Assembly: GCA_023150835.1 (NCBI GenBank)
Contig: JAKLKB010000178.1
Coordinates: 1 to 10,386, forward strand
DNA from: Myxococcota bacterium
Lineage (GTDB): Bacteria > Myxococcota_C > UBA6777
Length of the DNA: 10,386 nucleotides
Direction: 5' to 3'
Shown here: piece by piece, positions 2,450 through 10,341 of the stretch
Numbering within the stretch: the stretch's first letter is position 1
Layout of the letters: each line of letters starts with the position of its first letter
Made by a program: the position numbers and the translations under genes
Notes under the pieces: model-generated
Database searches by the model: none
Told to the model about the DNA's origin: nothing
The model's input: the letters and a program-made list of their open reading frames with translations, nothing else

Positions 2450-2938
2450 TCACTTCCGAAATGAGGCGATATAGGCTGTAGTGTGGGCGCAAAGAGAAGT
2501 TGCAAAAGCTGTAAAGCCGAATCCTTGGTTTGGCTCTCGATAAACTCCTTGCAACCCGCTCTCTTGTTCGGAAAGAAGAAGGCAAGCTCGATCATACAAA
2601 CGTTCTCTCACGAGACGCTCGCAAAACAGTTCGTAGCGCCTAGCATACGAAGAATCCCTGAATTCCTCGAATGCTGTGACGACAAGATCCCAATCTTTGG
2701 TGGGGCGAAAATAACCGGGCAATGTTGTGGCGGTTGTGTGGATCGCCTCTCTAGGCAGGCCGGACTCGCAAAGCAAATCGACCAAAAGGTTTGCAAAACC
2801 GTCCAAGTGCCGCCCTCCCGTGACGGCTCTTCGATTGCCAGAGTCTCTTCTCCCTGATGTTCGGCCTTGCGCTTGCTGTTGCTGGGTTCTTGTTTCCCAA
2901 AAGAACCTCACAGCCTGCTCGACACGGTGTTTATCCAT
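2450..2938 (-). pseudogene. XhoI/PaeR7I-type restriction endonuclease, internally deleted
   Basis: The 162-residue frame begins MDKHRVEQAVRFFW and continues with AVTGGRHLDGF (38-48) and LPGYFRPTKDWDLVV (73-87). These are the N-terminal signatures of the XhoI/PaeR7I family, type II enzymes cutting CTCGAG. From about residue 89 it jumps to SYARRYELFCERLVRERLYD (97-116) and GVYREP (131-136), which I recognise as that family's C-terminal part. The stretch normally between them, with the EFKSQ catalytic lysine motif and following core, is absent: roughly 75-80 residues, compared with a usual length near 240. The junction lies near 2670-2680 and keeps the frame. AAGGAG at 2947-2952 with eight-base spacing precedes the ATG, which overlaps the methyltransferase stop as ATGGATAA. 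It should have no nuclease activity. Family assignment is from memory of conserved segments, not from a search. Confidence 0.75.
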
Positions 2939-3368
2939 CGGATGGGCTCCTTGTGGTTTTGAGCACCATGCGAGAAAACAAAGAAACGCTTGCGTTTTGG
3001 ATGCGCGTTTGCGCCATATCGAGATAGCGTGGATCGACTTCGATACCGATGGAATGCCGCCCCCACCTCGCGGCAGCGACAACGGTCGTCCCCGTACCCA
3101 CAAAGGGATCAAGCACAGTATCCCCAACAAAAGAAAACATACGGATCAACCGCTCGGCGAGCTCTTCGGGGTAAGGGGCAGGATGATTGCGGGTAGAAGC
3201 TCCCGTCAAACCAGACCAAATCGATTGAAACCACCGTTTGTGATTCTCTTCGGAGATCACCGACAAGACACGCCACACGCATCGAGATCCCTTGTGCAGC
3301 CGAGGGCGGAGATTGCGATGGATGCGATGCCATCGGTGGTTGCGCAGGATTTGGCGCGTCAGAGGCAT
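2931..3368 (-). pseudogene. DNA methyltransferase, C-terminal half only
   Basis: Residues 47-80 of this frame (FQSIWSGLTGAS, then HPAPYPEELAERLIRMFSF) match motif X and the preceding linker of beta-class N4-cytosine/N6-adenine methyltransferases. VLDPFVGTGTT (85-95) is motif I, the S-adenosylmethionine site, and IGIEVD (107-112) is motif II. In this class the catalytic (S/D/N)PPY motif IV lies in the N-terminal half, and none is found upstream, so the enzyme lacks its catalytic motif. Such proteins are usually about 300-450 residues; here the recognisable part is about 110. The first 35 residues (rich in Arg and His) do not look family-like, so true homology probably begins near 3265. It overlaps the endonuclease start by eight bases, as in an intact modification-restriction operon. 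Intended specificity would be CTCGAG if it partners that enzyme. Confidence 0.7.
2947..2952 (-). promoter_or_regulatory. Ribosome binding site of the endonuclease remnant
   Basis: On the minus strand AAGGAG lies eight bases before the ATG at 2938, inside the end of the methyltransferase frame. It fixes the start of the endonuclease and shows that the translation signals survived the decay of both genes. Confidence 0.6.
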
Positions 3369-3630
3369 GGGGCGACAACGGTTGTGGTTGAGAAGACGAT
3401 GCAGAGGCCTGTGGGCCTTGCAAAAGAGGCGCGTGTGGATCTTGTGCGAAGGGTTGGCGTGCCAGAAAGCGCGCCAGTTCTTCTGACGGAAAGCGCATAT
3501 CCTGTGTGGTCTTGTCCAAAGCTACCTCGGAAATAGACAGCGGGGCTTGTTGGTTGACGTCACGTTGGGCGAGGGAGGCTTGTTGGGCAACGTCACTTCC
3601 ATCCAACCGATCTGCTGGGAAATCCATCAT
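3109..3630 (-). CDS. Unrecognised Pro/Ser/Gln-rich ORF upstream of the methyltransferase remnant
   Basis: The frame opens with ATGATG at 3630, preceded by AAAGGG seven bases upstream and AGGAG further up. Residues 1-60 look like an ordinary soluble protein (for example SEELARFLARQPFAQDPHAP at 49-68). Residues 70-113 are rich in Pro, Ser, Gln and Ala. After about residue 113 the reading is merely the shifted frame of the methyltransferase, so the real coding part probably ends or changes frame near 3290-3300. It shows no methyltransferase motif, signal peptide or membrane segment. It may be an unrelated gene whose 3' end was lost in the same rearrangement that removed the methyltransferase N-terminus. 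A single frameshift would fuse it to the methyltransferase half. I do not recognise a function. Confidence 0.35.
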   Translation of the reverse strand: MMDFPADRLDGSDVAQQASLAQRDVNQQAPLSISEVALDKTTQDMRFPSEELARFLARQPFAQDPHAPLLQGPQASASSSQPQPLSPHASDAPNPAQPPMASHPSQSPPSAAQGISMRVACLVGDLRRESQTVVSIDLVWFDGSFYPQSSCPLPRRARRAVDPYVFFCWGYCA

Positions 3631-6118: not shown

Positions 6119-6246
6119 TTTATACGATCTCCGAGAGAAGTGTGCTTAAAGGATAGGTGCGATCCGCTGTAGACGCCCTGTAGTTGGGCAGCCACAGGGG
6201 GCTGCCCCTACATATTGGCGCACACGATGGGAAGATTTCGTATGTT
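6119..6246 (+). mobile_element. Family X MITE-like element, diverged copy
   Basis: This aligns end to end with the reverse complement of 10017-10137. Shared parts are ATACGAT-TCCGAG at the left end, GTGTG, the core TTGGGCAGCCACA then CTGCCCCTACA, and CGATGGG--GATTTCGTATG at the right end. The outer arms ATACGA (6122-6127) and TCGTAT (6238-6243) are inverted repeats. The core hairpin has an 8-bp stem, GGGCAGCC (6187-6194) with GGCTGCCC (6201-6208). It has no coding capacity. Its right half was later duplicated (6170-6380). Confidence 0.7.
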
Positions 6247-6380
6247 TTTTTCTGGATAGGAGAGGATGGATGCGATAGACGCCCTGTGGTTGGGCAGCCA
6301 CAGGGGGCTGCCCCTACATATTGGCGCACACGATGGGAAGATTTCGTATGTTTTTTCTGGATAGGAGAGGATGGATGCGA
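6170..6380 (+). repeat. Tandem duplication of leader, 106 + 105 bp
   Basis: Unit 1 is 6170-6275 and unit 2 is 6276-6380. They differ visibly only at one base (CTGTAG versus CTGTGG, near 6181/6287) and in a T-run of seven versus six after TATG. Each unit holds the family X core hairpin, the right terminal arm GATTTCGTATG, a T-run, the sequence AGGAGAGG and the start-like ATGGATGCGA. The high identity suggests a recent duplication or ongoing homogenisation. Confidence 0.92.
6363..6370 (+). promoter_or_regulatory. Ribosome binding site of the PcRGLX-like gene
   Basis: AGGAGAGG lies just before ATGGATG; the in-frame ATG is at 6375, seven bases from AGGAG. An identical site at 6258-6265 in the first duplicated unit leads to ATG CGA TAG (6270-6278) and, from ATG 6266, to a 32-codon frame that stops at 6362-6364, overlapping this site. 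Confidence 0.7.
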
Positions 6381-9300
6381 TTGGGTTTGTGTTTGTGGTG
6401 TTGGGTGGGTTTGTGTTTGTGGCTTCCAGCGCAGGCGCACGCTCACACCAATCTGTATATCCCGCTCACCTTGCAAGAAGCTCTGCCGAACAATCCCGAT
6501 AGTCCGACATTTCAACTGATCAAAGGCATGGATCGTTTGGATGAACCCGTCACGTTCACGATCCCGCTCGATCCCGATCTTGAAAGCATCAACTATGTGC
6601 TGATCGGCGCAAAGTACGCCCAGATCACACCTCTGACCGCATGGCCGAATGGAAGACCCCGCTGGATCAAGATCCATTCGCTTGTCGATCTGCGTGGCGG
6701 GGAACAATACCAAAAGATGTTCTTTACCCTCGGCGAAGGGAACCTCACCGCGCCCGATATGGCGAAAGATTCACCCGACAAGATCACAGTCGACACAGGG
6801 GCCGCCCAATTCACTGTCCGAAAAACCCAATTCAACGGCCTCGATCAAGTCCAGATCGGCGAGACCACGCTTTTACGCAACGCCCCGCTGTCTGGTCTGA
6901 TCGCCGAAGATGCCGACGGCAAGACCTATTCTGCCGAGTCCGATCCAAACCTACGCGCCGTCATCGAAGAAAATGGCTCTGTTCGTTCAATCCTGCGTAT
7001 CCAAGGGACATTGCGCAACACCGCCCAAGAAAGCCTAGCGGATTTCACCCTCCGTCTGGCCTTTACACGCTCCCGATCGGACGTTCGTCTCACGCTCACA
7101 CTCCAAAATGCCAGCAAACAGCGCATCCGCCATCTTCGTTTGCGTAGCCTGCGCTTTTCCCTTGCAAGCAAGATCAGCGCACCACGCACCACCTTTTCAA
7201 CGCACACCACCCCGTTCTCCACCACTCTCCAATCCAACGACGCTCCCGTCACCCTATTTCAAGGGCGCAATCGCCTCCCCACCCTTGGACTCGATCTCTA
7301 TCCTGCGGACAAACACCCCGCACGCTCCGATGGATACACCCTCCAACAAGCACAACAGCCCCTTGCTTCGGGAACAGCAGCACAACCCATCGCTCTGTTT
7401 TTTGCTCAACTCTCCGCAACACAACCCGACCAAGGCGTGATCACCTTCGGTACGCGCTTCGCGGCACAATACGCCCCCCAAAGCCTAGAGATCAACGCCG
7501 ACGGGCGCTTCACCCTTTACGCCCTGCCACCACAGATCGGCCACACTTACACCTTGCGCTTTGGAAGCCACCACACCACCGAACACCTCTTGGACTTCGC
7601 CACCAAAACGACCGATGCTTCGGCCTCTTTCTTTCGTTATCAATATCCGCTCGTGATCCGCCCCAAGACACCCGAGTGGCACAATGAAGCCTTCTCCGCA
7701 GGCATCGATCGCCTGATCTCATTTAAGGAAGAAGAAAGCTACTTCACCGCCCGCAACTGGAAGGTGACAGGCGATCCCCTCGCGATCCAAGATCGCCGCC
7801 CACAATTTGCTCCTGTGCGCGCCCTTCAATGGGACGCGACCGCACCGCTACTCCATGACCCCGCACGCATCGACCTCTTGAACTATTTTCGCCAAGAAGC
7901 CCCTCACGCAGGAACCTATTATCTCCAAGCCCGCCAACGACTCGCGTATTATGCCGATCAATCGGTCTTCCACAGCGACGACTTTGAGGCTTCGGATCGC
8001 TGTCAACAAGCCGCTGCCCTCTGTAAAAACAACCAACCCACCCCCGATGCCGATCTCGCAGGAGCCGAGGGCCTACCGCCCTTCCAACCGCGCTTTCCGA
8101 TCCATGACCGTCACGCTTACAGCCTTGCTCTCGGCTATCACACCACAGGCGATCCCCGCCTGCGCGATGCTTTTTTGGCGTGGGGCGAACACCTCCTGTA
8201 CGAAAACCAACAAGAACCCACCGAGACCCTCCGCTCTTATGCGTGGAAGCTGCTCAACCTAACAAAGCTGTATGTGATCTCGAAAGAAGCTCGCTACCAA
8301 CAAGCAGCTTGGGCGCTCTTGCAACGCGAAAGCCTTGACAAATCGGCCAAAGTCGGAGAGTCGAGCGGCACCGATTGGAGGCGCGGTTTTTTTGTGCCTT
8401 CGTCACAAGCCAAAGAGGCCCAACGCATCCAAAGCACCGAAGAGATCGCCGAACTGCTGTTGCGTGCCTATGCCAGTTTTCTCGATGACGCGGCCCTCGA
8501 CGAGACACAACGCGACAAGACACGCAGCTTGCTCGAAGGTCTTGCTCGCTTTGTTTCACATGAGCTTTGGCGTCCAAACACCCAAAACCCTGCTGCATCG
8601 GGCTATCCCAAGCAATATAACCTCGATACAGCCCCACCCATCGACCCCACCACGCTTCCTGACTGGCAAGACGGCTTGCGGGCGGGATACCTCGGCTTTT
8701 TCTTCACCTACCTTTTTTCCCGAGACAAGCGCTGGTTAGAAAGCGCTGAACGCCTTCAAGAAGCCACCGCCAACAACCAAGCCAAACGCGCAGATCTGCC
8801 CGATCATCCGTCTCGACAAACCCTTCACCACGCCCAAGAAGCCACCATCCTCTATGCCGCTTGGCGTCCACTGCCTTTGCGCATCGACCGCGAAAGCGAT
8901 GGCACCTACATCTTGCGTTGGCTCGCCCCACCCGCCGCCAAAACCTACCAGTTCAAATACGCCCAAACACCGATCGTCGACTGGCTTGATTACAACCCAC
9001 AAACCCGCACCTTCGGCAAAGATCCCGCCCAACATACCGCGTTTTTCGCCGCCCAAGATATCCTCCAAGAACCCACTCCCACCGAGCACGGTACACTCCA
9101 GTCCATCCGACCCGACAAACTCCCCAAAGATCAGCCTCTGTTCTTTGCCGCACGCTACGCCAGTACCGACCCCCGCGCTCCGACCCCCCTCGATCCCGAA
9201 GCCGATCTCGAAGCTCTCCAAGAATCCCCATCCACCGAGACCACCGCTGATGCCTCGGTCGACGCCTTGACCGATACCCTCACCGACAACCCCCCCCAAG

Positions 9301-9425
9301 ATCCCACTCCACCCCACAACGGATGCCGCTGCGAAGCCCTCTCTCCCCACGAAGGGCTTGTCTGGCTCGGCCTGTTCGGACTCTTGCTTACGTACCGCAA
9401 AAGACGCATAGTCCCCGAAAGATAA
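6375..9425 (+). CDS. Secreted PcRGLX/YetA-like protein with MYXO-CTERM-like tail
   Basis: From ATG 6375 the product has 1016 residues. A signal peptide (1 to about 23, ending AQAHA) is followed by a beta-rich domain (about 47-162) with LTAWPNGRPRWIKIHSL, as in the N-terminal RIFT barrel of PcRGLX/YetA proteins. A beta-sandwich-like region (about 180-420) and an alpha-helical region (about 497-830, including HDRHAYSLALGYHTTGDPRL), probably an alpha/alpha toroid, come next. Then a fibronectin-III-like stretch (832-930), an acidic Thr/Pro linker (942-982), CRC at 984-986, a hydrophobic helix (994-1007) and RKRR. Members of this family include exo-acting rhamnogalacturonan lyases, so polysaccharide cleavage is plausible, but catalytic residues could not be assigned and substrate is unknown. 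The tail suggests surface sorting. The frame is open upstream to 6321, but those residues come from the duplicated repeat. It is followed after 23 bases by a lipoprotein gene. Confidence 0.7.
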   Translation: MRLGLCLWCWVGLCLWLPAQAHAHTNLYIPLTLQEALPNNPDSPTFQLIKGMDRLDEPVTFTIPLDPDLESINYVLIGAKYAQITPLTAWPNGRPRWIKIHSLVDLRGGEQYQKMFFTLGEGNLTAPDMAKDSPDKITVDTGAAQFTVRKTQFNGLDQVQIGETTLLRNAPLSGLIAEDADGKTYSAESDPNLRAVIEENGSVRSILRIQGTLRNTAQESLADFTLRLAFTRSRSDVRLTLTLQNASKQRIRHLRLRSLRFSLASKISAPRTTFSTHTTPFSTTLQSNDAPVTLFQGRNRLPTLGLDLYPADKHPARSDGYTLQQAQQPLASGTAAQPIALFFAQLSATQPDQGVITFGTRFAAQYAPQSLEINADGRFTLYALPPQIGHTYTLRFGSHHTTEHLLDFATKTTDASASFFRYQYPLVIRPKTPEWHNEAFSAGIDRLISFKEEESYFTARNWKVTGDPLAIQDRRPQFAPVRALQWDATAPLLHDPARIDLLNYFRQEAPHAGTYYLQARQRLAYYADQSVFHSDDFEASDRCQQAAALCKNNQPTPDADLAGAEGLPPFQPRFPIHDRHAYSLALGYHTTGDPRLRDAFLAWGEHLLYENQQEPTETLRSYAWKLLNLTKLYVISKEARYQQAAWALLQRESLDKSAKVGESSGTDWRRGFFVPSSQAKEAQRIQSTEEIAELLLRAYASFLDDAALDETQRDKTRSLLEGLARFVSHELWRPNTQNPAASGYPKQYNLDTAPPIDPTTLPDWQDGLRAGYLGFFFTYLFSRDKRWLESAERLQEATANNQAKRADLPDHPSRQTLHHAQEATILYAAWRPLPLRIDRESDGTYILRWLAPPAAKTYQFKYAQTPIVDWLDYNPQTRTFGKDPAQHTAFFAAQDILQEPTPTEHGTLQSIRPDKLPKDQPLFFAARYASTDPRAPTPLDPEADLEALQESPSTETTADASVDALTDTLTDNPPQDPTPPHNGCRCEALSPHEGLVWLGLFGLLLTYRKRRIVPER
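6383..6422 (+). repeat. 24-bp-period repeat inside a signal peptide
   Basis: GGGTTTGTGTTTGTGG occurs at 6383-6398 and 6407-6422. It encodes the doubled GLCLW of the hydrophobic core (GLCLWCWVGLCLW). The eight-codon period keeps the frame, so the core looks extended by duplication. Confidence 0.8.
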
Positions 9426-9448: not shown

Positions 9449-10009
9449 ATGTACACATCCCCTGTTGCTTTCTCTCGTATCTTTCGCCTGTTCAGCATCT
9501 TTCTTCTTCCCATGATCGCCGCATGGAGCCTTATGACGGCCTGCCCCGCTCCCAACGCCACCCCCGACGGCAGCACCGAAACCACCCCCGACGGCAGCAC
9601 CGAAACCACCCCCGACGGCAGCACCCAAGAAACCATGTCCGAAGCCACTCCCGAAGGCAGCGGTGCGATCCGTTCGCTTGTCACCAAAGAAGGCACTTAC
9701 CGCGTGGTCTACGTCCCTGCCCCCGATCCCATCCCCCTCAACGAAAACTTTGCGATCAACTTCACCGTCACCTACGCGGATGGCCGTGAGATGGCCCTTC
9801 CCGCCGATCTTGAATTAAAAGCCGACGCCACCATGCCTGCCCACAAACACGGGATGCTCCAAAAACCCACGATCCAAAAAGAAACGACCGGAAAGTACAA
9901 AGTCGACGGGATGAAGTTCCACATGCCCGGTCAATGGGTGATGAAAGTCGACCTCACTTCGGGCGCAAAAACCGAAACTGTCGACTTCGAGATCAATCTG
10001 TCCAACTGA
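9449..10009 (+). CDS. Lipoprotein with YtkA/FixH-like domain
   Basis: The 186-residue product starts with a basic n-region and hydrophobic core, then a lipobox-like LMTAC with Cys32, so it is probably a lipid-anchored envelope protein. After the Cys is a Thr/Asp/Gly/Ser linker made of three TPDGST repeats (38-58). Residues about 84-184 form a small beta-sandwich with PIPLNENFAINFTVTYADG (94-112), MPAHKHGM (129-136) and GMKFHMPGQW (154-163). This MP-H-HGM ... FHMPG-W pattern is that of YtkA/FixH-like domains. The two His/Met clusters look suited to bind a metal such as copper, which is an inference. It lies 23 bases after the PcRGLX-like gene and shares its strand, so cotranscription is likely. 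No cytochrome oxidase or peroxidase genes, which often accompany such domains, are nearby. The Met at the -3 lipobox position is unusual but tolerated. Confidence 0.78.
   Translation: MYTSPVAFSRIFRLFSIFLLPMIAAWSLMTACPAPNATPDGSTETTPDGSTETTPDGSTQETMSEATPEGSGAIRSLVTKEGTYRVVYVPAPDPIPLNENFAINFTVTYADGREMALPADLELKADATMPAHKHGMLQKPTIQKETTGKYKVDGMKFHMPGQWVMKVDLTSGAKTETVDFEINLSN
9557..9628 (+). repeat. Three 24-bp tandem repeats in the lipoprotein linker
   Basis: Units 9557-9580, 9581-9604 and 9605-9628 read (G/A)CCACCCCCGACGGCAGCACC then GAA or CAA. They differ at one base each from the middle unit and encode TPDGSTET-type repeats. Copy number should be able to vary without changing the frame. Confidence 0.93.
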
Positions 10010-10016
10010 TCGAGGA

Positions 10017-10137
10017 GTCATACGAAATCCGCCCATCGCGTAACCTTAACGGTGTAGGGGCAGACAGATGTGGCTGCCCAAGAATCGGGCGTATACGCAA
10101 TATCTTACGATCACACATCACTCGGATATCGTATGAC
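10017..10137 (-). mobile_element. Family X MITE-like element, best-preserved copy
   Basis: The 121-bp element has terminal inverted repeats GTCATACGAAATCCG (10017-10031) and CGGATATCGTATGAC (10123-10137), matching at 14 of 15 positions. Inside are the family core (GGGGCAGACAG ... CTGCCC, 10057-10079, inverted relative to the other copies) and a perfect palindrome GCGTATACGC (10089-10098). It starts seven bases after the lipoprotein stop codon. It encodes no protein; a transposase would have to act in trans. No clear target duplication beyond the arms is visible. Confidence 0.78.
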
Positions 10138-10176
10138 GCATTCGGCCCCCCAAAAACCGTGTTCGCACCCTTCCAA

Positions 10177-10274
10177 GCGAGAGCGTCGTCTGTTTGAAAA
10201 ACTACCGATCTCTTCGCCAATACGGGGTCAAGGGAGCCGCGCTCCCTGCGGGGCGTGGGGCAGCGCCCCATACG
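10177..10274 (-). repeat. Family Y double-hairpin repeat, copy C (inverted)
   Basis: On the minus strand it reads CGTATGGGGCGCTGCCCC, CACGCCCCGCAGGG, AGCGCGGCTCCC, TTGACCCCGTATTGGCG and ends near ACGCTCTCGC, matching copies A and B. Its second hairpin, GGGAGC-GCG-GCTCCC, is perfect, and the first keeps a GGGG/CCCC stem with a different loop. Confidence 0.75.
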
Positions 10275-10341
10275 CGCCTTGTTAAGGTGGAAACCTCGTA
10301 GAGTCGGTCTTGATCGCCTTTTTTTTTCTCCCCCCCTCAAT

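Follow-up and report, generated by a model that had tools for sequence, protein, structure and literature searches.

The gene at 6375-9425 carries its Shine-Dalgarno sequence and start codon twice, and this raises the question of whether the additional copy serves the gene or has merely been carried along by the repeat in which it is found. The stretch of DNA that was analysed (10,386 nucleotides, the window in what follows) makes up contig C127 in full, in a Myxococcota assembly of 7.56 Mb and 239 contigs, the one available genome of its species. It was compared with Myxococcota MAG KLAP109 (G001), a sister species of the same genus. The explanation that we regard as likely is that the duplication is a by-product of a hairpin-bearing repeat family: an element was inserted, and a tandem duplication with little homology at its ends then copied the gene start incidentally. 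The features of the locus are collected in Table 1.

Two units of 106 and 105 bp stand in tandem directly 5' of the gene. TRF reports the repeat at 6170-6381 with a period of 106, 2.0 copies, 98% match and a score of 408. A tandem of 106 bp that is so nearly identical is far beyond chance and the duplication is real. Each unit is made up of the right part of a MITE-like element and an adjoining leader of 33 bp, which comprises a T-run, the Shine-Dalgarno sequence of the gene and its ATG; the units end with TTTTTTCTGGATAGGAGAGGATGGATGCGA, in which the Shine-Dalgarno sequence AGGAGAGG and the ATG are contained. They differ by one substitution (A6182 against G6288) and by one T in the T-run (T7 against T6). 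The first-pass annotation had given the coordinates and lengths of the units correctly, and TRF and the unit alignment also bear out its statement that the T-run holds the single length difference. Likewise the doubled translation signals that it described (Shine-Dalgarno sequences at 6258 and 6363, ATGs at 6270 and 6375), the two hairpins with 8-bp stems and the right arm of a MITE-like element were all found, the latter matching the element at 6123-6242. Sigma-70-like promoters and terminators were searched for near the locus and none was found, and the Rfam search of the window returned no family.

Table 1. Features at the duplicated gene start (window coordinates)
Feature	Position	Strand	Description
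MITE-like element copy TACGATCTCC...GATTTCGTA	6123..6242	+	120 bp; aligned to dispersed copies
Tandem unit 1	6170..6275	+	106 bp; element right part, leader, Shine-Dalgarno (SD) and ATG
Core hairpin copy 1	6186..6207	+	GGGCAGCC-ACAGGG-GGCTGCCC; minus strand preceded by GTAG
Predicted hairpin, element end (UCGUAUG) and T-run with unit 1 SD and start	6238..6275	+	-11.2 kcal/mol, z -2.97
Duplicated Shine-Dalgarno AGGAGAGG	6258..6265	+	in unit 1
Duplicated start ATG CGA TAG (Met-Arg-stop)	6270..6278	+	105 nt upstream of 6375 and in its frame
Tandem unit 2	6276..6380	+	105 bp; adjoins gene; A/G at 6182/6288 and one T against unit 1
Core hairpin copy 2	6292..6313	+	8-bp stem GGGCAGCC/GGCTGCCC
Predicted hairpin, end of the element and T-run with SD and start of the gene	6344..6380	+	-11.3 kcal/mol, z -2.87
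Gene's Shine-Dalgarno AGGAGAGG	6363..6370	+	in unit 2
Secreted-type protein gene	6375..9425	+	1016 aa; PcRGLX-like central beta sandwich domain (PF21345) matched in part, E 3.2e-9

The assembly is fragmented and its contigs often end in repeats of this family, which might suggest that the assembler doubled a single unit. Such a pure assembly duplication is very unlikely, because two differences separate the copies; moreover, many other arrays with distinct units were assembled inside contigs. The same frequent breaking of the assembly at these repeats means that the two units seen here may be a lower bound.

The end of the C-terminus of the gene product (window 9320-9422), with a CRC motif, a hydrophobic stretch and YRKRR, is similar to a myxobacterial C-terminal sorting signal, and no NCBIfam match was obtained for it. 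The YtkA-domain gene contains a perfect 24-bp tandem repeat of 2.8 copies within its coding region (window 9558-9629). Overlapping ORFs on the minus strand at 2450-3630 form a type II restriction-modification locus which may be broken: they match restriction endonuclease XhoI with E 8e-31 and an N6/N4 DNA methylase with E 1.9e-25, the latter match covering only the C-terminal part.

Relatives of the element at 6123-6242 are scattered through the genome. The family is short, non-coding and dispersed, as MITEs of 70-300 bp are, with nearly all of the 23 two-ended copies measuring 105-121 bp and with about 805 core sites in the genome. The ends are TACGATATCCG and CGGATTTCGTA, which form terminal inverted repeats of about 11 bp with a mismatch, the terminal inverted repeats of MITEs being longer, 15-30 bp (PMC3733652). 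Identical 3-bp flanks, as left by a target-site duplication, occur in 10 of the 23 copies, and in nine of these they are TGA, TTA or TCA. The copy in the window has TTA as its left flank and TGT as its right flank, and the absence of the visible target-site duplication expected of a MITE speaks against the by-product explanation. None of the five DDE_Tnp_1 loci, the transposase family covered for this purpose, was found to be a parent transposase with the ends of the element.

Downstream of the YtkA-domain gene there is a further element of the family (window 10019-10131), and the sister species has one in the same place and orientation. The copies in the two species are clearly of different subtypes, though the DNA of the neighbouring gene is about 92% alike, and this mismatch reflects either two insertions made separately at the site or conversion among copies. 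The window also has three copies (144-208, 2325-2389 and 10174-10280) of a second dispersed repeat family, which is GC-rich and has the form CACCCCACGCCCC-CAAGGG...CCCTTGACCCCG; one copy of it is found upstream of the ortholog of the gene in the sister species.

The core of the element is a hairpin. Searched as GGGCAGCCAC-N5-GCTGCCCCTAC with at most three mismatches, it has 403 forward and 402 reverse sites in the genome, the reversed control giving 0. Both copies in the window have a predicted folding energy of -18.6 kcal/mol (z -2.57). Read on the minus strand, the core is GTAG-GGGCAGCC-CCCTGT-GGCTGCCC, that is, GTAG followed by an 8-bp stem and a 6-nt loop, and it has the form that defines GTAG REPs, a palindrome of 20-40 bp with a GTAG tag at one end. 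One RAYT-like ORF (310 aa, match to Y1_Tnp with E 2.2e-6) is present in the genome, and similar GTAG hairpins are found inside and beside it. This ORF is on the minus strand of L090 at 1453-2382, where the GTAG-hairpin repeats are translated as IGQAQ repeats, and a further array of cores starts beside it at L090 1103. Sequence that the GTAG repeats encode interrupts the ORF, which may be inactive.

The array in the window is one of many. An exact core followed by another exact core at 14-75 bp was found in 69 spans, at about 40 loci in the genome (0 in the reversed control). In the arrays that were read the units measure 34-156 bp, with many periods and edges, and all contain the core hairpin; elsewhere whole elements stand in tandem or were inserted side by side. 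Many arrays are at contig ends, where the assembly does not give their true lengths, and the edges of several are uninformative owing to such a location or to a fractional excess. Where both edges are within the contig and clean, the copy number is mostly near-whole and the junction homology or excess is 0-2 bp. The duplication at 6170-6380 itself has a junction homology of 1 bp (T), which is why slippage between direct repeats of greater length was rejected here.

Read from the junctions alone, the mechanism would be an initial duplication with little or no homology, later followed by expansion in some cases, and the near-zero junction homology fits this. According to the by-product explanation, the inserted element, which belongs to a MITE-like family of mostly 105-121 bp with about 800 core copies, would have brought a GTAG-tagged, REP-like hairpin core to the site just upstream of the gene. 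Afterwards, with about 1 bp of homology at the junction, a tandem duplication would have copied the right part of the element together with the adjoining 33 bp. Similar duplications centred on the hairpin, with some expansion by slippage or recombination, would have taken place at about 40 other sites. The start of the gene would have been included by where one breakpoint happened to fall.

The arrays could also have been made by a transposase of the RAYT type (HUH) acting on the GTAG hairpin, and not by errors of replication or repair. The presence of the RAYT-like ORF with its GTAG hairpins, and the fact that the unit begins at GTAG in some arrays, that of the window included, are in keeping with this idea. 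Nevertheless the breakpoints are widely scattered, and by eye a minority of them (about 7 of 30) are at or next to a GTAG(A)CGCCC stretch; enrichment for a GTAG-specific breakpoint was considered and not shown. Together with the interruption of the ORF, this makes the action of a RAYT a rather unlikely source of the arrays.

Among the other arrays examined, none gave a convincing case of a Shine-Dalgarno sequence and start that are repeated and lead on to a long ORF beyond the array; the hit at L139 was discarded, as its reading frame runs through the repeats themselves. Because none of the arrays examined among the roughly 40 elsewhere copies a start, we take the copied start in the window to be incidental, probably a by-product and not a selected switch.

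Comparison with the sister species indicates when this happened. The ortholog of the gene there has 94% amino acid identity and a dN/dS of 0.14, and the upstream region is conserved, has no element and contains a single start region. A different repeat is present there, so the site is not a clean empty one, and this too counts against the by-product explanation. Since the sister species has neither the element nor a second start, the insertion and the duplication are probably specific to the present lineage, the former having occurred after the species split. The two units differ by one substitution in 105 aligned positions and by one T, as against a dS of 0.23 between the species, and the duplication is therefore presumably young. 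The sister species has 2 exact spans and about 143 cores, its lower number of arrays possibly reflecting its more fragmented assembly, and this difference was left out of the argument.

The first-pass annotation had suggested that there may be two strong initiation sites, and this part of it was not supported as it stood: the upstream ATG is directly followed by CGA TAG, so that Met-Arg would be made and translation would stop, and the predicted folds leave both sites mostly in base pairs. The unpaired probability, predicted for naked RNA with an assumed transcript start, is 0.10 for the copied Shine-Dalgarno sequence and 0.23 for that of the gene, and 0.05-0.13 for the AUGs. The leader of the sister species, without the element, has a weaker predicted fold (z -1.19) and an openness of 0.42 for the Shine-Dalgarno sequence and 0.37 for the AUG, and because of this initiation may have become lower when the element was inserted. 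The second unit leaves the Shine-Dalgarno sequence of the gene as open in the prediction as before (0.23, against 0.22 for a single unit).

The last figures bear on the proposal that the number of units and the length of the T-run alter the hairpins of the leader and ribosome binding, so that the gene is tuned by a length-variable switch. It is true that the copies differ in T-run length, that the T-run pairs with the Shine-Dalgarno sequence in the predicted fold and that the breaking of contigs at arrays hints at possibly variable lengths. However, no variation is seen in the one available genome of the species, one unit or two are predicted to make practically no difference, and the other arrays, with no copied start, suggest no special selection here. 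Tuning of expression by array length, which had also been put forward in the first-pass annotation, is possible, and we consider such a switch improbable.

The in-frame upstream start was rejected as the beginning of an N-terminally extended protein, its third codon being TAG; this stop, at 6276-6278, is there because the unit starts with TAG. At 6266 a further ATG begins a frame of 32 codons, which ends at 6362-6364, at the Shine-Dalgarno sequence of the gene; this ATG stands immediately against its own Shine-Dalgarno sequence and is probably a poor start. There is also the proposal that the Met-Arg-stop minigene, which has its own Shine-Dalgarno sequence and lies 105 nt upstream in the frame of the gene, regulates that gene in cis through ribosome occupancy or mRNA protection. 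Two-codon leader minigenes in axe-txe and LEE1 do affect the downstream gene (PMC8708949). Yet the effect in axe-txe depends on distance and needs active translation (PMC8708949), while here the Shine-Dalgarno sequence is predicted to be paired, the stop arises simply from the initial TAG of the unit and transcription through 6270 is an assumption. We give this role of the minigene little chance. Under the by-product explanation, the gene would still be translated from the ATG at 6375, and the upstream start, if transcribed, would yield a two-codon minigene with at most a modest effect.

A function of the duplication for the gene is accordingly unproven. The most far-reaching possibility, that a stuttering repeat family has created a heritable leader of variable length in which decoy starts, minigenes and Shine-Dalgarno hairpins dependent on the T-run set the output of an exported protein, seems to us very improbable. 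The locus is nonetheless a recent and clear example of a mobile-type repeat carrying the translation start of its neighbour into a tandem array, with an element-free site in the sister species. The roughly 40 arrays, with their varied units and mostly 0-2 bp of junction homology where clean, make the seeding of tandem duplications by hairpins testable through junction statistics. That a single genome has so many and such varied arrays is a point that possibly deserves the attention of specialists. A literature search for a duplicated ribosome binding site of such a sort found no paper.

Several known systems resemble parts of what is described here. The MIRU-VNTR loci of mycobacteria consist of interspersed units, some of them in tandem, which are intergenic and include translation signals; their elements are unrelated to the present family, and variation in unit number has been shown in mycobacteria, whereas here there is one genome. 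The bacterial MITEs Nezha, RUP and NEMIS (PMC3733652) are alike in size, terminal inverted repeats, absence of coding capacity, high copy number and position next to genes, the present family differing in that no parent transposase was found for it and in being strongly prone to partial tandem arrays. With the GTAG-tagged REPs of Di Nocera et al. (2013, PMC3733652) it shares the GTAG tag, the 8-bp stem, the hundreds of copies and the presence in the genome of a RAYT-like gene, which may here be inactive, although here the core is mostly within an element of 105-121 bp having its own terminal repeats, and the arrays are head-to-tail. The minigenes of axe-txe and LEE1 (PMC8708949) are likewise two-codon leader ORFs preceded by a Shine-Dalgarno sequence, and their translation and effect were demonstrated, whereas ours is known from its sequence. 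There is likeness, finally, to Pseudomonas fluorescens SBW25, in which tandem REPIN clusters with flanking sequence are known (16 clusters; Bertels and Rainey 2011, PMC3116915) and form head-to-tail arrays of a mobile hairpin repeat with its flanks, as here. The present case differs in its MITE-like element with a REP-like core, its roughly 40 arrays with many unit lengths and the one unit that holds the Shine-Dalgarno sequence and ATG of a gene. The array in the window is thus of a known kind, a tandem REPIN-like cluster with flanks, and has an unusual passenger, the start of a gene.
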